From Porphyromonas uenonis DSM 23387 = JCM 13868 (GTDB lineage Bacteria > Bacteroidota > Bacteroidia > Bacteroidales > Porphyromonadaceae), in the NCBI RefSeq assembly GCF_000482365.1, contig NZ_KI535309.1, positions 35,546 to 99,545 on the forward strand: a stretch of 64,000 nucleotides of DNA, read 5' to 3'. Positions 1-16,526 of this stretch are shown one piece after another (within the stretch, counting starts at the first letter, position 1; each line of letters starts with the position of its first letter). Made by a program: the position numbers and the translations under genes. A model generated the notes under the pieces. It had not been told where the DNA came from. It searched no databases and was given only the letters and a program-made list of their open reading frames with translations.

Positions 1-108
1 ATGAAGCGCAAGGCGCTGAGGGTGAGGTCTGAAGGGAGCATACCTCCGTATGTGACCGAAGCCGAATCCCGAAAGCAACACAGCGATTCGCCTTTATGCA
101 ACAGTCTC
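1..108 (-). mobile_element. Partial MITE copy cut by the window edge
   Basis: The reverse complement of this stretch matches the left part of the 175-bp element inside the lipoprotein gene near 2.5 kb, base for base as far as I can read. It ends at the terminal inverted repeat TGCAACAGTCTC (97-108). The other end lies outside the window, so the target duplication cannot be tested. No coding capacity of its own is expected. Confidence 0.85.
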
Positions 109-202
109 TCTTCGGGAGGGAGGGGTAATCAGAGAGGTCGCGTAGCCACTGCGTAGTGCTGCTCGAAGCGTATCCCCCTGCGTAGGGAGGCAGAGAGGGG
201 AC

Positions 203-235
203 AAAGAAAAAGCCCCCCGCTAGATGCGAGAGGCT
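203..235 (-). terminator. Rho-independent terminator of tRNA-Lys
   Basis: On the minus strand AGCCTCTCGC pairs with GCGGGGGGCT (10 bp with G-U pairs) around a 5-nt loop, followed by a T-rich run. It lies about 20 bases beyond the 3' end of the tRNA. Confidence 0.75.
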
Positions 236-254
236 CTCATTAAATATTCAAGCG

Positions 255-329
255 GTGACCTCGGAGGGGCTCGAACCCTCGACCCACTGATTAAGAGTCA
301 GTTGCTCTACCAACTGAGCTACGAAGTCA
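255..329 (-). tRNA. tRNA-Lys (anticodon CTT)
   Basis: On the minus strand the sequence folds as a full cloverleaf. The acceptor arms TGACTTC and GAGGTCA pair. The D-arm contains AGCTCAGTTGGTAGAGC, the anticodon loop is CTCTTAA flanked by CTGA/TCAG, giving anticodon CTT for codon AAG, and the T-arm contains GGGTTCGAGCCC. CCA is not encoded. A Bacteroidota -7 box lies upstream and a terminator hairpin downstream, so it is a single-gene transcription unit. Confidence 0.95.
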
Positions 330-376
330 AGCTTCATTCGGGAGAGTCACAAGGACTTCCTTCCTGAACTGTGATG

Positions 377-384
377 CAAAGGTA
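377..384 (-). promoter_or_regulatory. -7 promoter box for tRNA-Lys
   Basis: The minus strand reads TACCTTTG, the Bacteroidota -7 consensus TAnnTTTG, about 50 bases upstream of the tRNA 5' end. Confidence 0.6.
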
Positions 385-535
385 CAACTTTTTCTGAATA
401 CTGCAAGCGCTTGGATCAACTTTTTTCGCAATCCGCTGATTTCTTCCTTTAAGAGGCTTGCGGGTAGCATGGGAGCACGAGCGATATCTCGCATAGATAG
501 AGCGCATTGCGATGGGAACCATAGGAATGCACAGG

Positions 536-830
536 AGTCTCTAGCGGGAGGGCATCCGTTGTGTCAAAGCGAGACGAGTAACGGTTGTAGGGACGCACGG
601 TCGTGCGTCCGTCTCCGTTAAAGATTACAATGTCCAGTTTGTATGATTACTAGGTTATATGTCTCGCCTTGACACAACGGACGCATGGCCGTGCGTTCCT
701 ACAGCCGTTACACGTCCCGATTTAACGGGGACGGACGCCCTCCGACTCGACACTTCCGTGCGTCTCTACAGCGGGTTACTCGTCTCCTTTTGATGGGACG
801 GACACACGGGTCACTCGTTGCACAGCGGTT
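536..830. repeat. REP-like GTAG palindrome cluster (locus A)
   Basis: At least three related units lie in both orientations. The forward unit has GTAG (587-590) followed by the near-perfect palindrome GGACGCACGGTCGTGCGTCC (591-610). A reverse unit has the palindrome ACGCATGGCCGTGCGT (681-696) followed by CTAC, and a third, more divergent unit lies near 724-787. Shared flanks are GTAACGGTTGTAGGGACGC on one side and CCGTTGTGTCAAAG on the other. The same family recurs near 14.85, 60.1 and 61.9 kb. Short open frames here are repeat-derived and not called as genes. Confidence 0.75.
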
Positions 831-908
831 GCAGGAGCACTCGGTCCTCTTATGCTCCGAGGGATCTGCTGGCGTCTCTTGATGGCAGGGCCCCCTGGGG
901 GCGTGTCG

Positions 909-916
909 TACCTTTG
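909..916 (+). promoter_or_regulatory. -7 promoter box upstream of the HU-like gene
   Basis: TACCTTTG matches TAnnTTTG. Transcription from here would give a leader of about 210 bases before the HU-like start codon. Apart from this box I see nothing definite between the repeat cluster and the gene. Confidence 0.5.
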
Positions 917-1136
917 CATCGTCTCCTCAGAGATACGGCCACGCGCTCCTCGTAAGCGGGTCAGCAGGTAGAGAAAAATAGGCTCTGCAAGCTCCTAACT
1001 GTAGATGGTCCCTGAGAGCAATCGCTGGCATGCTCCATGACACCTATTATATATAGGAGATCCTCAGACGTAGCAACGGCAGCATCACAGTGTGGGAGAC
1101 GAACTAAATTTACTAACTCAACAAAATCAATTTACT

Positions 1137-1670
1137 ATGGCAATCAAGTATGCAATCCAGCAAATCAATCGAAAAGGCGCAACTCCAGACAGTAAGATTA
1201 CTCGCTACTACGCACAAGCTAAGTACGATGGTGTTACCTCACAAGAAGACATCGCTCAGATGGTCTCACAGATCTCCGCTATATCTGTTGGGGACGTGCT
1301 CAGCGTCATGAATACGGTCTCTATGCTGCTCTCCATAGAGCTGGCTAATGGACGTATCGTGGAGCTAGGCGATCTAGGACGCTTTAGAGCGACTTTGCGT
1401 AGCAAGTCTTGCGAGAAGCCTGAGGAGTTTAAGCGGGAGATGATCCATGGCAACAGGGTCATATTTGTCCCAGGGGCACAGATACGCCAGAAGATGACAA
1501 GCGCTAGCTACCTCAAGTATAACCCCACCAGCCTATCGTCAGAGTCGGGTGAGAAGCCCAATGCGACACCAGGTAATGGTACGCCGGGCGAGTCAGGGTC
1601 TCAGACGCCCTCCACAGGCAACGAAACGGGTGGAAGCACCAATCCAAACAGTGGTCAGACAGGTATGTAA
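1137..1670 (+). CDS. HU-like DNA-binding protein (Bacteroidota HU/IHF-type)
   Basis: A 177-residue protein with the pattern of the Bacteroidota-specific HU-like family: a short strand start MAIKYAIQQ, then helices with SVGDVLSVMNTVSMLLSIEL and the strand LGDLGRFRATL typical of the HU fold (roughly residues 1-125), then a Ser/Gly/Pro/Thr-rich disordered tail. An in-frame GTG 45 bases upstream would add 15 unusual residues; the ATG is preferred because family members begin with MAxKY. It probably bends or coats DNA. It sits directly before an amidase and a small membrane protein, a combination that recurs in Bacteroidota. Its exact cellular role is unknown. Confidence 0.8.
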   Translation: MAIKYAIQQINRKGATPDSKITRYYAQAKYDGVTSQEDIAQMVSQISAISVGDVLSVMNTVSMLLSIELANGRIVELGDLGRFRATLRSKSCEKPEEFKREMIHGNRVIFVPGAQIRQKMTSASYLKYNPTSLSSESGEKPNATPGNGTPGESGSQTPSTGNETGGSTNPNSGQTGM

Positions 1671-1716
1671 TCTGAGTCTATCCAAGTAACCGGAGGGGAT
1701 CGGAGTAATCTGATCC

Positions 1717-1780
1717 CCTCTAACCTCTAAAGTCTAATCTCTAACCTCTAACCTCTAATTTCTAAAGTCTAATCTCTATA
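1717..1780 (+). repeat. CTCTAAY leader repeats (locus 1)
   Basis: About nine imperfect 6-8-base units of the form CTCTAAC/T, some read TCTAAAG, stop four bases before the amidase start codon. Similar tracts precede purM and the leucine-rich repeat gene. Confidence 0.75.
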
Positions 1781-1783
1781 ATC

Positions 1784-2251
1784 ATGAAGCCAGACGACAT
1801 CAAATATATCGTAATCCACTGTAGCGCCACGCGTAGTAATATGACCTATAGCGCATGGCAGCTAGATCAAGACCATCGAGCCAGAGGCTTTGCCATGGCT
1901 GGTTACCACTTTTACATCACACGTGCCGGCGTCATCGAGTCTCTGCGTCCTCTCACCATGCCCGGAGCACACGCTATCGGATACAATCGCTGTAGCCTAG
2001 GCGTATGCTACGAGGGGGGACTGAGGCCCGACGGGACTCTGTGGGATACCCGTACGCCCGAGCAGCGAGACGCTATGCGCCAGCTACTCAAGACGCTTGT
2101 AGCTACCTACCCTAAGGCACGGATCGTGGGGCATAGAGACTTGAGCCCCGACTTAAACCACAACGGCATCATAGAGCCTCACGAGTGGATGAAGGCGTGC
2201 CCCTGTTTTGATGCATTCAAAGAGTATCTATCGCTATGGCACAAACGATAA
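1784..2251 (+). CDS. N-acetylmuramoyl-L-alanine amidase (Amidase_2, T7-lysozyme type)
   Basis: 155 residues, the whole of one amidase domain with no signal peptide. Candidate Zn ligands are the His of YIVIHCSAT near the N-terminus, the His of IVGHRDLSPD and the Cys of MKACPCFD near residue 140, which correspond to the two His and one Cys of T7 lysozyme; a Lys precedes the Cys pair as in active family members. It would cleave the MurNAc-L-Ala bond of peptidoglycan. Lacking a signal, it needs lysis or a holin-like partner to reach the wall; the next gene overlaps it and encodes a tiny membrane protein. It is prophage-like in origin, but no other phage genes are visible. Confidence 0.9.
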   Translation: MKPDDIKYIVIHCSATRSNMTYSAWQLDQDHRARGFAMAGYHFYITRAGVIESLRPLTMPGAHAIGYNRCSLGVCYEGGLRPDGTLWDTRTPEQRDAMRQLLKTLVATYPKARIVGHRDLSPDLNHNGIIEPHEWMKACPCFDAFKEYLSLWHKR

Positions 2252-2448
2252 AACCCCAGGGAGGGAAGCAACTCTGCCTAGCGGTGCTCCTGAGCATCTC
2301 TGGCATAGGACTCCTGGCAGCGGGCTTTACAGCACCTCCGCTCGGGGTCATAGACAGCTCCGTGCTCGTAGCGTACGGTGAGGTGATGACCTTCGTCGGA
2401 GCCCTCCTCGGGCTAGACTATAAGTACAAGTACCATGCAGACCTATAA
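2236..2448 (+). CDS. Small two-helix membrane protein (holin-like or smalltalk-like)
   Basis: 70 residues, overlapping the end of the amidase gene by 16 bases. Two hydrophobic segments are visible, roughly residues 12-36 and 43-60, with a charged YKYKYHADL tail. Small proteins of this kind regularly sit beside HU-like and amidase genes in Bacteroidota. A holin-like role is inferred only from size, topology and neighbourhood; no diagnostic motif is present. Confidence 0.6.
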   Translation: MAQTIKPQGGKQLCLAVLLSISGIGLLAAGFTAPPLGVIDSSVLVAYGEVMTFVGALLGLDYKYKYHADL

Positions 2449-3148
2449 GAGGAGACTGTTGCATAAAGGCGAATCGCTGTGTTGCTTTCGGGATTCGGCT
2501 TCGGTCACATACGGAGGTATGCTCCCTTCAGACCTCACCCTCAGCGCCTTGCGCTTCATCCTTTCTGCAAAGTCAGGACAATCTTGCTTGCAAGATTGTG
2601 AGACTGTTGACTTTTGCAACAGTCTCAAGAGACGCGTGAGCGCACTGATCCTCACCGCCAGCATACTACTAAGCTGTGGCACACGGCGACACCACTTCGC
2701 GGATGCGTCGCAGCAGCGTAGCGAGCTGGCGGTGAGCCAGGCTGAGCAACATCTCCGTGACACCACCCTAGAAGAGTGGGAGCTGCTCCTCTTAGACAGC
2801 ATTCCGCCCAGTCAGAAGGGGTTAGAATTACTGTCAGGCTTAGAGCCTCTAGTAGGAGACTCGCTACCTGCAGGGTATAGCTTGCAGACACCCCATGTGC
2901 GCTATATACGCGCTAGGCGAACGGTCGTCAAGAAGCAAGATAGCATAGTACAACAGGGTGCAGCGCTACGGCAAGAGGACTTTCAGCAAGAAGAGGTGAC
3001 GGATCGCCAGACAGCAAGTCGTCGTCCCAGTCTGCTCACTAGGCTACTAGTCTGGGTAGTAGGAGGGGGGCTCCTCGTGATCTGCGTCACTACGTTCGTA
3101 TGGAGCGTAGTGCGACGTTTGCAGCCCATCATCGGCAAATATAAGTAG
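2435..3148 (+). CDS. Putative lipoprotein with C-terminal membrane segment, interrupted in frame by a MITE
   Basis: The 237-residue frame starts MQTYKR; residues 7-66 derive entirely from a MITE and its target duplication. Removing them restores MQTYKR joined to RVSALILTASILLSC, a classical lipoprotein signal peptide with its Cys at 21. The remainder is charged and helical, with a strong transmembrane segment near the C-terminus (LLVWVVGGGLLVICVTTFVW) and a basic end. In the current allele the signal is displaced to about residue 67. An in-frame GTG at 2636 after AAGAGA could restart translation as MSALILTASILLSC. It overlaps the small membrane gene by 14 bases, suggesting coupling. A spanin-like role with the amidase and holin-like gene is possible but unproven. 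Confidence 0.65.
   Translation: MQTYKRRLLHKGESLCCFRDSASVTYGGMLPSDLTLSALRFILSAKSGQSCLQDCETVDFCNSLKRRVSALILTASILLSCGTRRHHFADASQQRSELAVSQAEQHLRDTTLEEWELLLLDSIPPSQKGLELLSGLEPLVGDSLPAGYSLQTPHVRYIRARRTVVKKQDSIVQQGAALRQEDFQQEEVTDRQTASRRPSLLTRLLVWVVGGGLLVICVTTFVWSVVRRLQPIIGKYK
2447..2631. mobile_element. 175-bp MITE with 12-bp terminal inverted repeats and 5-bp target duplication
   Basis: The element spans 2452-2626. Its left end GAGACTGTTGCA and right end TGCAACAGTCTC are perfect inverse complements, flanked by AAGAG on both sides (2447-2451 and 2627-2631). Element plus duplication is 180 bases, so the host reading frame stays open. It encodes no transposase and must be moved in trans. The right end has a second internal GAGACTGTTGA just before the TIR. 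Confidence 0.9.
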
Positions 3149-3213
3149 CTACTCGCTAGGTCTGCAAAATCTAGGTGAAGGGCAGAGTTAGCTGGCGGGT
3201 ATGTGCTATTTTG

Positions 3214-3221
3214 TATCTTTG
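3214..3221 (+). promoter_or_regulatory. -7 promoter box for the YitT-family gene
   Basis: TATCTTTG, preceded by a T-rich stretch. It lies about 80 bases upstream of the preferred start codon. Confidence 0.6.
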
Positions 3222-3301
3222 CACGCAGATAACTGTCGAAGAGCATCGCCACCCCGTGTGGTGCCCTCTCGATGGGTCTCATACTTCGTAATACACATCT
3301 A

Positions 3302-4306
3302 ATGAAATACAAGCTCCCCAGTAAGGATGAACTTCGTGCCCGCCTCGCAGCTCTGCCTGCTCAGGCTACCGAGCTACTCTCTAGTCGTAAGTTTTGGTAC
3401 GAATTGGTCTTGATGACCGTTGCCATGTTTATCGGCGCTATGGCGGTACACTACTTCCTGGCTCCTAGTGGTCTGATCGTTGGATCGGTGACGGGACTGG
3501 GCATCGTGCTGGAGCGGTTGCTCCCAGTGATGTCGCTGGGGTCCTATATGTTTCTCATCAATGCGATCTTGCTACTCCTCTCTTTTATCCTGATCGGCAA
3601 CGAGTTTGGTGCTAAGACTTGCTACACGGCACTGATCCTAGGCCCGTTTGTGGACTTGATGGGGTGGCTCGATCCGGTCAGTGGGTCGATGTTTGCCCAG
3701 GAGGTTCATGGTGTGATGGTGACTAACCCGGGGTTTGACTTGGTCTGCTTCATCTTGGTGATGAGTGCAGCGCAGGCGATCCTCTTTAGCATCAACGCCT
3801 CAACGGGCGGGCTAGATATCTTGGCAAAGATCTTCAACAAGTTCCTCCATGTGCCACTAGGTGTGTCGGTTACGATCGCTGGGGGCTTGATCTGCTGCTC
3901 CGCCTTCCTGACCAGTCCTACGGGGCTTGTGATCATGGGTCTCGTGGGTACCTGGCTCAATGGCTTGATCCTCGACTACTTTATGACCCGCATGAGCTCG
4001 CGGACACGTGTCTATGTCATCTCTAAGGATTGGGAGCATATCCGTAACTATGTGATCCACACGCTGAATCGTGGGGTGACGATCCACCCCGTGACGGGTG
4101 GTTACTCAGGCGAGGAGCACAAGCAGCTGGAGTGTATCTTGACGAGAGATGAGTTTGGCAAGCTGCTAGACCATCTGCGTGCTGAGCGTATGGATCCCTT
4201 TATCACCTCAGACCCGGTCAGCGAGGTGTACGGGCTGTGGCGCAAGAAGGGCCAGCGTGAGGAGCTGCCGGTCGAGACGGACACGCCTGACGAAAGCACC
4301 TTTTAA
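3302..4306 (+). CDS. YitT family membrane protein (DUF2179 C-terminal domain)
   Basis: 334 residues from MKYKLPSK; an ATG 30 bases upstream is in frame but adds an atypical MGLILRNTHL. About five or six transmembrane helices occupy the first two thirds, including the glycine-rich LAPSGLIVGSVTGLGIVLERLL and the family-typical NASTGGLDILAKI. A soluble DUF2179 domain follows (YVISKDWEHIRNYV, GVTIHPVTGGYSGEEHKQLE). The family is an uncharacterised set of inner-membrane proteins, possibly transporters; no substrate can be named. It has its own promoter and is followed after 26 bases by a porin gene. Confidence 0.88.
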   Translation: MKYKLPSKDELRARLAALPAQATELLSSRKFWYELVLMTVAMFIGAMAVHYFLAPSGLIVGSVTGLGIVLERLLPVMSLGSYMFLINAILLLLSFILIGNEFGAKTCYTALILGPFVDLMGWLDPVSGSMFAQEVHGVMVTNPGFDLVCFILVMSAAQAILFSINASTGGLDILAKIFNKFLHVPLGVSVTIAGGLICCSAFLTSPTGLVIMGLVGTWLNGLILDYFMTRMSSRTRVYVISKDWEHIRNYVIHTLNRGVTIHPVTGGYSGEEHKQLECILTRDEFGKLLDHLRAERMDPFITSDPVSEVYGLWRKKGQREELPVETDTPDESTF

Positions 4307-4332
4307 GTATCAACTTATTGACTCTCTAGACC

Positions 4333-5406
4333 ATGTCACATCTTACGAAGTATCTCTCGGCTCTCATACTCCTACTGACACTTGCTCTCGGCTCACTGAT
4401 GGCTCAGGAGCCTGTGCCCGATGCTGAGCTAGAGGCTCCTCATGACAAGAAGGTCTCTCTCTCGCTGGAGGCGCGCGGTGACTACCAGCGTATCTATCTA
4501 GGGAGCCACACCGATGAGGCGGGCTCAGGCTTTAAGGGAAACATTGCTAACATCGTACTCAGTGGCACGCTCTCGCCAAAGTTTAGCTACCTCTATCGAC
4601 AGCGACTTAGCTCGATCAATCTAGATCGCTCCTTCTTTGAGTCGATCGACTTCCTCTACCTGCAGTACAACCCGATCGAGCAGCTGAGTGTACGACTCGG
4701 CAAGTGGATCGTCTTCGTCGGTGGGTGGGAGTTTGAGCCAGCGCCGATAGATGTCTTCCAGGTGGGCGAGTTTTGCTACCATATGCCAGCCTATCAGTGG
4801 GGTGCTACGGTGAGCTACACCTTGCCCAATGGACAGGACAACCTCCATATGCAGGTGATCCAGAGCCCTTATCGCAAAGCCTACGAAGAGAGAAGTGGCG
4901 AGCCTGCCGATATGTATGCCTACAACTTGGTCTGGACTGCGCACCACGACTGGTTTGTGCCGATGTGGAGTGTCAACTTTATGGAGTATGCCCCTAGGCG
5001 CTTTATGAACTACATTTCGCTGGGCAATCGCTTCCAGCTGACCCCTCGCACCTTCGTGGACCTAGACCTGATGCACCGTGCGCCACTAGACGGAGATGGC
5101 AAAAAGCTCTTCTCCGACTACTCTATCTATGGACAGCTAGCCTACCACCCGACTGAGCAAACGAAGCTTTACCTGAAGGGGAGCTACGATCATAATACGA
5201 GTGGCTTTCACGCAGACTACGGCGTCACCGATGGCACGCAGATCACTTGTCTCGGGGGCGGAGTCGAGTACTCACCGATCCCCGAGGTGCGCCTGCATGC
5301 ACATGCTGACTACGCCTTTGGTACGAACACGAATCCGCAAGCTGTGCTACATAACCAGCGCACGCTGATCAATGTGGGAGTCACCTGGCGCATGAAAGTC
5401 CTCTAA
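4333..5406 (+). CDS. Outer-membrane porin, phosphate-selective porin O/P-like
   Basis: 357 residues with a clear Sec signal peptide ending near LALGSLMAQ. The body alternates amphipathic strands rich in Tyr, Trp and Phe. An OprO/OprP-like block is visible: FLYLQYNPIEQLSVRLGKW followed by WEFEPAPIDVFQV. The chain ends LINVGVTWRMKVL, so it lacks the usual terminal Phe. It would form a channel in the outer membrane; phosphate selectivity is a family label, not shown here. It is closely spaced between the YitT gene and argS on the same strand. Confidence 0.75.
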   Translation: MSHLTKYLSALILLLTLALGSLMAQEPVPDAELEAPHDKKVSLSLEARGDYQRIYLGSHTDEAGSGFKGNIANIVLSGTLSPKFSYLYRQRLSSINLDRSFFESIDFLYLQYNPIEQLSVRLGKWIVFVGGWEFEPAPIDVFQVGEFCYHMPAYQWGATVSYTLPNGQDNLHMQVIQSPYRKAYEERSGEPADMYAYNLVWTAHHDWFVPMWSVNFMEYAPRRFMNYISLGNRFQLTPRTFVDLDLMHRAPLDGDGKKLFSDYSIYGQLAYHPTEQTKLYLKGSYDHNTSGFHADYGVTDGTQITCLGGGVEYSPIPEVRLHAHADYAFGTNTNPQAVLHNQRTLINVGVTWRMKVL

Positions 5407-5424
5407 CACGTTATACTATATACT

Positions 5425-7239
5425 ATGAGCCTTTACAAACAGCTTAGCGAGGCGATCGCCTCGACACTACATACACTATACGATCTCACCACGACCGCTG
5501 ACGAGATCACGCTGACCGCCACACGACCTGAGTTTGAGGGGCATGTGACGCTCGTCGTCTTCCCCTACCTCAAGGCTTCGCGCAAGTCTCCTCAAGAGAC
5601 CGCCGAGACGATCGGTGCCAAGCTACAGGAGCAGACAGATCTCATAGCTTCCTATGGCGTGGTCAAGGGCTTTCTCAACCTCACGCTGACCGACTCAGCG
5701 TGGCTCGCAGCACTGCGAGAGATTGCCGAGACCCCGCACTACGGGCACATCACACCGACAGAGCAGTCGCCTCTCGTGATGATCGAGTACTCCTCACCAA
5801 ATACCAATAAGCCCCTGCACCTGGGACACGTACGCAACAACCTACTCGGCTACAGCCTCGCTCAGATACTAGAGGCGAGCGGGCATCGTGTGGTCAAGAC
5901 GAATATCGTCAACGACCGTGGCGTGCATATCTGCAAGTCGATGCTGGCGTGGCTACGCTGGGGCAATGGCGAAACGCCTGAATCTTCGGGCAAAAAGGGC
6001 GACCACCTCATCGGCGACTACTACGTGCGCTTTGACAAGGAGTATCGTGCCGAGCTGGCGCAGATACGTGCTGAGCATCCCGACTGGAGCGACGAAGAGG
6101 TCGAGGCTAAGTCTCAGCTGATGGCTGACGCACGACAGATGCTCCGTCAGTGGGAGCAGGGCGACCCAGAGGTTCGTGCACTATGGCGAAAGATGAATGA
6201 GTGGGTCTACAAAGGCTTTGACGAGACTTACCGCCGTATGGGGGTCTCCTTTGACAAGATCTACTACGAGAGCGACACCTACCTCGTGGGGCGTGAAGAG
6301 GTTTTGCGTGGTCTGAAAGAGGGACTCTTCGAGCAGCACGAGGATGGCTCCGTCTGGGCCGATTTTGAGGCGGAGGGTCTAGACAAGAAGATCCTCCTCC
6401 GCAGTGACGGCACCTCGGTCTACATCACCCAAGACATTGGCACGGCCAAGCTTCGCTATCAGGACTTCCCGATAGACCAGATGATCTACGTCGTGGGCAA
6501 CGAGCAGGAGTACCACTTCCAGGTGCTATCGCTACTCTTAGACCGCCTAGGCTATAAGTGGGGCAAGAGCTTGACACACTTTAGCTACGGTATGGTGGAG
6601 CTACCTCACGGCAAGATGAAGAGTCGCGAGGGGACGGTCGTCGATGCGGACGATCTGATGGACGCTATGCGCGACACCGCTCTAGAGGTGGCACGGACAG
6701 CTCAGCAAGCTAAGGGTGCAGAGCTAGCCACCGAGCCGACAGCCGAGGAGCTACGCACCGCCGAGATGGTCGGGCTGGGCGCGCTCAAGTACTTCATCCT
6801 CAAGGTGGATCCGAGGAAGAATATGATGTTCAACCCCGAGGAGTCTATCGACTTCAACGGCAACACGGGCCCCTTCATCCAGTACACCTATGCGCGTATT
6901 TGCTCGCTCCTGCAGAAGGCTGACGAGATGGGCTACAAGCATCAGCTCCCCGAGGGCGGAGAGCTAACTCTTTCGTCCTATGAGACGGCACTCGTCCAGC
7001 AGCTACTCGACTATCCTAGCGTCGTGCAGGAGGCTGCCGAGAGCTATTCGCCAGCCCGCATTGCCAACTATACCTATGACTTGGTCAAGGGGTATAACCA
7101 GTTCTACCACGAGTGCTCCGTACTGCGTGAGGAGGACGAGGCGCTGCGTAGTATGCGCCTGCAGCTCAGCCAGACCGTTGCCGAGACGATACATAGTGCC
7201 ATGGGGCTTCTCGGCATTGAGTTGCCCGAGCGCATGTAG
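5425..7239 (+). CDS. argS: Arginyl-tRNA synthetase
   Basis: 604 residues, close to the usual class I ArgRS length. The N-terminal Arg-specific additional domain covers about residues 1-110. The HIGH-type motif HLGH is at 132-135 within SSPNTNKPLHLGHVRNN, and the KMSKS-like loop reads GKMKSREG. The C-terminal DALR anticodon-binding domain is recognisable from YTYARICSLL onward. It charges tRNA-Arg with arginine in the cytoplasm. It lies 18 bases after the porin gene and 30 before mnmA, so the three may be co-transcribed. The family is unambiguous. Confidence 0.97.
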   Translation: MSLYKQLSEAIASTLHTLYDLTTTADEITLTATRPEFEGHVTLVVFPYLKASRKSPQETAETIGAKLQEQTDLIASYGVVKGFLNLTLTDSAWLAALREIAETPHYGHITPTEQSPLVMIEYSSPNTNKPLHLGHVRNNLLGYSLAQILEASGHRVVKTNIVNDRGVHICKSMLAWLRWGNGETPESSGKKGDHLIGDYYVRFDKEYRAELAQIRAEHPDWSDEEVEAKSQLMADARQMLRQWEQGDPEVRALWRKMNEWVYKGFDETYRRMGVSFDKIYYESDTYLVGREEVLRGLKEGLFEQHEDGSVWADFEAEGLDKKILLRSDGTSVYITQDIGTAKLRYQDFPIDQMIYVVGNEQEYHFQVLSLLLDRLGYKWGKSLTHFSYGMVELPHGKMKSREGTVVDADDLMDAMRDTALEVARTAQQAKGAELATEPTAEELRTAEMVGLGALKYFILKVDPRKNMMFNPEESIDFNGNTGPFIQYTYARICSLLQKADEMGYKHQLPEGGELTLSSYETALVQQLLDYPSVVQEAAESYSPARIANYTYDLVKGYNQFYHECSVLREEDEALRSMRLQLSQTVAETIHSAMGLLGIELPERM

Positions 7240-16509: not shown

Positions 16510-16526
16510 ACTTTTGCAACAGTCTC
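16510..16526. mobile_element. Solo MITE end
   Basis: ACTTTTGCAACAGTCTC matches the terminal 17 bases of the right end of the MITE near 2.6 kb. No matching left end or target duplication is visible, so it is a remnant or a chance-preserved end. It lies between convergent genes. Confidence 0.5.

Follow-up and report, generated by a model that had tools for sequence, protein, structure and literature searches.

How can a transposable element come to lie inside a signal peptide with the gene still open, and what becomes of the exported protein? The question is raised by a locus in the window, the whole stretch of 64,000 nucleotides of Porphyromonas uenonis DSM 23387 analysed here. In it, a lipoprotein gene of 237 codons (2435–3148, + strand; an open reading frame with orthologues in the genomes G001, G022, G024 and G025) carries a 175-bp MITE (2452–2626, + strand) in the n-region of its signal peptide. 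The element was delimited from the sequence, an inverted-end search, a comparison of copies and a table of insertion sites. Its perfect 12-bp terminal inverted repeats, placed by both the inverted-end search and the site table, lie at the left (GAGACTGTTGCA; 2452–2463, + strand) and the right (2615–2626, − strand; TGCAACAGTCTC on the + strand), and an AAGAG target site duplication flanks them in the sequence (2447–2451 and 2627–2631, both + strand). Element, ends and duplication are thus as the first-pass annotation described them. MITE and duplication together add a net 180 bp, and the host frame runs uninterrupted through all 237 codons despite the insertion; as the frame used in the element is also stop-free, 60 residues would be read through, in agreement with the earlier reading.

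Directly beyond the element, the right copy of the duplication restores Lys-Arg ahead of the hydrophobic core, and motif inspection finds the basic n-region, core and lipobox cysteine of a bacterial lipoprotein (KRR-VSALILTASILLSC; core and lipobox at residues 68–81, 2636–2677, + strand, with the cysteine as residue 81). Because the duplicated AAGAG restores K-R-R before the core, and because core and lipobox are untouched, the signal appears to survive behind a 60-residue extension. The change of localisation proposed in the first-pass annotation finds no support in this arrangement, in which K-R-R, core and lipobox all stand intact after the element.

We consider it probable, from the sequence comparisons set out below, that a cleaved signal peptide can accommodate the MITE-encoded extension in its n-region, and that the extension would be discarded on processing. 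On this view, a non-autonomous IS5-type MITE would recently have entered a type II (lipoprotein) signal peptide within its n-region; translation from ATG 2435 would add 60 residues before reaching K-R-R, core and lipobox, all intact; the Sec machinery and signal peptidase II would still recognise the core in the N-terminally extended pre-protein; and the extension would be removed along with the signal peptide, leaving the mature lipoprotein unchanged. Everything before the lipobox cysteine is removed in established Sec/Lsp biology, so that the mature protein would be identical. We infer translation of the element in the window strain, processing and unchanged localisation on these grounds. 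More generally, signal-peptide n-regions would be places in which such MITEs survive in frame.

The gene has close neighbours. A gene for a hydrophobic 70-residue protein (2236–2448, + strand) overlaps the start of the lipoprotein gene by 14 bp; its TAA (2446–2448) overlaps the left duplication, and the MITE begins 3 bp past it. Further upstream lie genes for an N-acetylmuramoyl-L-alanine amidase (1784–2251, + strand; PHROG category lysis) and an HU-HIG DNA-binding protein (1092–1670, + strand). The cluster as a whole (1092–3148)—HU-HIG protein, phage-type amidase, hydrophobic protein and a lipoprotein with a C-terminal transmembrane segment, beginning at about residue 204—resembles a lysis cassette, and the amidase, the 70-residue protein and the lipoprotein occur together in five Porphyromonas genomes. 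The topology of the lipoprotein is that of a unimolecular spanin, defined in the cited part of PMC6139136 by an N-terminal lipoprotein signal and a C-terminal transmembrane segment within a lysis cassette. Topology and amidase neighbour fit a spanin candidate; the best PHROG match of an orthologue is weak (E 0.02) and functionless, and tblastn against phages gave no match. A search for the MITE in plasmids likewise returned no match. No sigma-70-like promoter was found in 1700–3300, promoter types of this phylum lying outside the model, and the same interval holds one terminator-like site against 0.7 expected. Rfam at the gathering threshold, over window positions 1–6000, identified only a tRNA and no other family.

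The IS5-type MITE family

Copies of the element abound in the window's own genome (G000), in which the best 40 of 77 candidates cover 172–175 of the 175 bases at 97–100% identity; at least 47 copies passed the filter once more stretches had been added (95–100% identity). The 12-bp end occurs 111 times, against once for a reversed control pattern. An IS with the same left end is present in the congener G012 (L103:679–2008, 1330 bp), with a right end ending CAACAGTCTC, a 5-bp duplication (AATAG) and a transposase of the IS5 family (NF033581, E 1.7e-65). In G000, a draft of 29 contigs in which further transposase copies may be hidden, a PF01609 search recovered one fragmentary transposase (C15:1205–1486), followed by the end GACTTTTTCAACAGTCTC. 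Short length, many copies, IS-matching ends and a fixed 5-bp duplication place the element among the MITEs of the IS5/ISPg4 group, and the identification of the insertion as a MITE is upheld by its own-genome copies and its terminal repeats of IS5 type. A 187-bp relative occupies 23 sites in G012 (L254–L271), 22 of them with a perfect 5-bp duplication. Frame-neutral length was considered as a property of the wider family and dropped, the G012 sites being 187 bp (n = 23) and two G012-type loci 188 bp.

Within the element, a 22-nt palindrome (2578–2599, + strand), of which the equivalent (element positions 127–148) matches its own reverse complement in other copies, forms a hairpin in the predicted fold. 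A nested copy of the terminal repeat (2600–2626, + strand) forms another with the right end. Three of the six reading frames are stop-free, a number reached by 1.3% of 20,000 dinucleotide shuffles, so that an insertion of random orientation and phase would be open about half the time and a single open copy is unremarkable; we accordingly rejected the open frame of any one copy as evidence of selection. Read on the reverse strand, the element is basic and has its own ATG (MKRKALRVRSEG...).

Other traces of the family were encountered along the way. A truncated copy lies at window positions 1–108 (element positions 1–108, reverse strand, 108 nt identical), near tRNA-Lys (254–328), and a lone right-end sequence without a MITE body (TTTGCAACAGTCTC; 16513–16526) is perhaps the remnant of another element of the same IS group. 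Tandem MITEs, in which positions 1–173 are fused to a second copy of positions 53–175, occur at four G000 loci (L011, L023, L024 and L062), two of which face a single copy in a relative (L024/L166 and L062/L187).

The family has a recognisable target. Of at least 151 sites in six Porphyromonas genomes, 95 (95/151) have a perfect 5-bp duplication, and these 95 yield the consensus Y-AWNWT-R. By target score, the window site falls in the top 2.4% of window positions, with a median of 1.1% for used sites.

Recurrence in signal peptides

Convincing orthologues of the lipoprotein were found in 5 of the 26 genus genomes, three weaker matches (E 0.004 to 0.28) being left out; the signal core and SCG are conserved in all five. 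The first-pass annotation had suggested looking for an empty site in relatives, and two provide one: in G001 and G024 (P. uenonis 60-3) the site is uninterrupted and the proteins begin with a standard lipoprotein signal (MRSSKRRLTALILTACLLLSCGS and MRSYKCVVCALILSASMLLSCGS, respectively). G022, an uncultured Porphyromonas MAG, and G025 share a MITE insertion in the same n-region, one codon from the insertion point in the window, in the opposite orientation and with the duplication AGTAA; here too the net addition is 180 bp and the frame is open. As duplications (AAGAG and AGTAA) and orientation differ, the two insertions are independent, and a single ancestral insertion flipped in place was rejected, both duplications being different and intact. 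The second insertion has been retained in two species, and these filled sites lend support to the earlier suggestion that the MITE serves as coding sequence.

A wider census covers at least 201 sites, 178 of the 175-bp family and 23 of the 187-bp G012 relative. It was built from the best 40 scored candidates per genome and is a lower bound; one G025 copy surfaced only through the orthologue search. Alignments below 165 bases or 85% identity were left out of the 151-site set and those below 150 bases (for G012, below 140 or short of either end) out of the added set. Both sets exclude copies whose junction adjoins an N and copies lying no more than 30 bases from a locus end; among those left out is L077, next to a run of N in a repeat-protein gene.

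Five independent in-frame insertions into signal peptides emerge from these sites, and all five are open: the window lipoprotein in G000; the same gene, independently, in G022 and G025; an Endonuclease_NS/BACON nuclease lipoprotein in G022, G024 and G025; LptE in G001; and a DUF4835 protein with a cleavable-type signal in G001 and G025. The last (L131), with a hydrophobicity of 1.89 against a cut-off of 1.9, was counted on its Pfam match and orthologues. Element-free orthologues place the native start upstream of the insertion for LptE (G000, G022, G024 and G025), DUF4835 (G000 and G024) and the nuclease (G000 and G001). Three further insertions lie within gene bodies and are likewise open: in a TatD DNase (G022 and G025), an isochorismate synthase (G000; the matches in G001, G022, G024 and G025 are continuous without the insert) and an EEP nuclease (G016). 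Five of the genes, those for the lipoprotein, the nuclease, LptE, DUF4835 and isochorismate synthase, have orthologues with an empty site. Every one of the eight verified in-gene events, spread over seven protein families, is open, with about half expected by chance (P 0.004, hand calculation), as would be seen if closed insertions were purged. N-terminal rows not counted are L172, L054 and L218:399 (closed) and L151 (open), none with a recognised gene, as well as L187 and L062 (closed). Open read-throughs lacking an upstream ATG (L098, L011, L237, L061, L142 and L252) were also not counted as in-gene; at L011, a patatin-like gene starts after the tandem copy.

The nuclease insertion has a patchy distribution, present in G022, G024 and G025 (L136, L158 and L201) and absent from G000 and G001 (L286 and L289), which conflicts with the amidase divergences and suggests recombination, precise loss or more than one insertion at a single target; we counted it as one event. 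In both the nuclease and the DUF4835 gene the MITE is less diverged than its surroundings, and no recombination tract is evident: between G001 and G025, DUF4835 has 4 changes in 58 MITE codons (dS 0.025), against a dS of 0.333 in the body. These two MITEs may have been homogenised with other copies by gene conversion, or may have arrived later through recombination; the time of insertion is thus uncertain, and the strong synonymous excess in the two gene bodies cannot be taken as clean evidence of post-insertion selection.

Could a preference for A/T-rich gene starts alone account for the parallel insertions and for their cluster in signal peptides? The target consensus and the high score of the window site are what this would predict. 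Among the at least 151 sites, 17 cross-genome pairs have both flanks orthologous and junctions within 60 bp; 16 share an orientation and represent shared insertions, and one, the window lipoprotein site, is opposite. One-flank evidence alone adds 19 near-coincident rows, 8 of them opposite in orientation, and together these pairs and rows indicate that near-coincident insertions at favoured targets may not be rare. Target preference alone is less readily reconciled with the eight open frames in eight verified events, or with the kind of protein hit: all five verified insertions in the first 25 codons of recognisable genes hit a signal-peptide protein (five of six if L187/L062 is included), whereas a crude rule assigns a signal- or transmembrane-like start to 17 of the 58 window ORFs (P about 0.002 and 0.009, respectively; hand calculation on a small sample from an incomplete census). 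We regard target preference as a possible sufficient cause, and it is compatible with the other readings considered here.

Probable translation through the element and constraint on the mature protein

Differing from the consensus at only 3 of 175 positions, the window copy appears young, and it says little on whether the gene still works. Of the at least 151 sites listed, that in G022 has diverged furthest (14/175 differences; median 4), the G025 copy has 16 differences from the consensus, and the two differ from each other at 18 positions; neither has an indel or a stop. Over residues 83–190, G022 and G025 are separated by 18 synonymous and 12 non-synonymous changes (dN 0.051, dS 0.265), a synonymous excess with P 8e-5 to 3e-3 (kappa 1–8). 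The signal core has 3 synonymous and 1 non-synonymous changes; for the mature part as a whole the figures are 28 and 36 (P 0.001 to 0.048, depending on kappa). These counts point to purifying selection on the mature protein after the insertion, weaker when the whole mature part is taken, and they further counter a change of localisation. In the MITE part itself, with 7 synonymous and 11 non-synonymous changes, constraint is weak (P 0.09 to 0.36), although its contrast with the mature part is not significant (Fisher P 0.23), and 24 substitutions would leave the frame stop-free by chance with a probability of about 0.31, hence no evidence of constraint. The absence of significant constraint on the MITE-derived codons would be expected of a discarded segment.

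Hydrophobicity over 13 residues is lower in the element stretch than in the core: 1.22 versus 2.22 in the window, 0.09 versus 2.53 in G022 and −0.13 versus 2.13 in G025, the element stretch being clearly polar in the last two. Over 19 residues the window values are almost equal (0.96 versus 1.15).

Translation might begin elsewhere, at GTG 2636 or in or at the edge of the element, which would make the product of ATG 2435 irrelevant and the MITE a 5′ insertion. The first-pass annotation had raised the GTG, which lies in frame directly ahead of the core and is a possible start in the window. Its product, however, would have just 13 residues, none basic, before the cysteine, and G022 and G025 have no such start: between element and core they contain no ATG, GTG or TTG, the sole exception up to the cysteine being a GTG two residues before it. 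A constrained lipoprotein in these two genomes therefore requires reading of element codons, if it is made. Whichever of the two directions is read, the element does contain an in-frame ATG (residue 29 in the window, residue 28 in G022 and G025). In 52 of 160 intact-end copies, an ATG arises at one or both junctions from the last bases of the duplication together with the element's first base (23 and 36 per side, where base composition predicts about 8 for each), in frames open as RLLHKG... or RLLQKS.... Such junction ATGs are present at LptE (L119) and one nuclease-lipoprotein copy (L136), though not in the window. At L187:853–1548 and L062, the end of the element supplies the ATG (MQQSPLEEAS...) of a gene for a signal-less protein whose own N-terminal frame the element closes. 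At L098:2662–2846, a MITE has landed on the start codon of a gene encoding a TonB-receptor-like protein with a signal peptide; its duplication, ACTAT, leaves an ATG on both sides, and the gene is intact downstream. At some loci, internal and junction starts must therefore be taken seriously as substitutes for the native ATG, and they still give element-encoded residues before the core; even the last internal start in G022 and G025 (GTG, residue 45) needs about 19 of them. Against a restart also stands the native-ATG frame, open in all five signal-peptide events, and we judge it an unlikely explanation of the locus. Nothing pointing to alternating forms, as in the membrane-targeted/untargeted switch once suggested, was found.

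Least likely is that the extended pre-protein goes unexported and the gene is decaying in this strain, its openness being chance (about one in two): half of the element's frames are open, the insertion looks recent and the mature lipoprotein evolves faster than its amidase neighbour (dN/dS 0.42 versus 0.06, G000–G024), but constraint persists in the orthologue that bears a comparable, older insertion, and LptE and DUF4835 bear similar insertions with bodies that stay conserved (95–99% identity among the closest genomes).

Beyond tolerance of a discarded n-region extension, which we favour, a bolder proposal can be put forward tentatively: that the MITE family is coding-compatible by build—given its net 180 bp, three open frames, junction ATGs and basic reverse reading with an ATG—and that n-regions, that of the LPS-transport lipoprotein LptE included, are recurrent safe harbours, where extensions would be translated, kept across species and possibly tuned, the transposon repeatedly supplying part of an export signal.

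Significance and relation to known elements

That a single MITE family has inserted on two separate occasions into one signal peptide, and into three or more others besides, points to a rule open to testing: within a cleaved export signal, mobile DNA can become coding without cost to the mature protein. The rule would account for puzzling N-terminal extensions of 60 residues in Porphyromonas annotation, caution against wrongly called starts and predictions of mislocalisation, and provide natural constructs with which to probe the length limit of a signal-peptide n-region. In the literature searched, mostly outside subscription journals, we found no report of recurrent MITE insertion in signal-peptide n-regions. 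In-frame bacterial MITEs are already known, scattered over many kinds of protein; what appears new here is the recurrence of the same family in signal peptides.

The closest relatives by their ends are in P. gingivalis, in which ISPg4 (IS5 family) and MITEPgRS/MITE464 have the same 12-bp left end as the window MITE (GAGACTGTTGCA), according to the cited part of PMC4596501; the comparison covers the ends. BrickBuilt, a further P. gingivalis MITE, is strictly intergenic as described in the section of PMC10969869 cited here, whereas the Porphyromonas MITE analysed above lies in frame within genes. Rickettsia palindromic elements (RPEs) offer a functional parallel: the cited portions of PMC2229807 and PMC10969869 describe short repeat-derived segments in frame in unrelated proteins and, in one tested case, an RPE in gmk with the protein made and active. 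Our eight events share the pattern of an RPE-like coding repeat—in frame, in unrelated genes and still open—but the likeness is one of in-frame insertion only, the present family having IS5-type ends, 5-bp duplications and N-terminal events in signal-peptide n-regions. QMITE2 of Coxiella is, like this MITE, sometimes in frame in mid-ORF, the cases given in the cited part of PMC5896051 being hypothetical proteins and not signal peptides. The long signal sequences of autotransporters (PMC2805444) are also N-terminal extensions, but a feature of a protein family rather than transposon-derived as here. Nearest in kind is the Yersinia YPAL/RU-2 MITE in YPO1552, which, in the extract of PMC2229807 cited, likewise contributes to a predicted signal peptide; the Yersinia element takes part in building a new signal, whereas the Porphyromonas one precedes an existing, conserved core.
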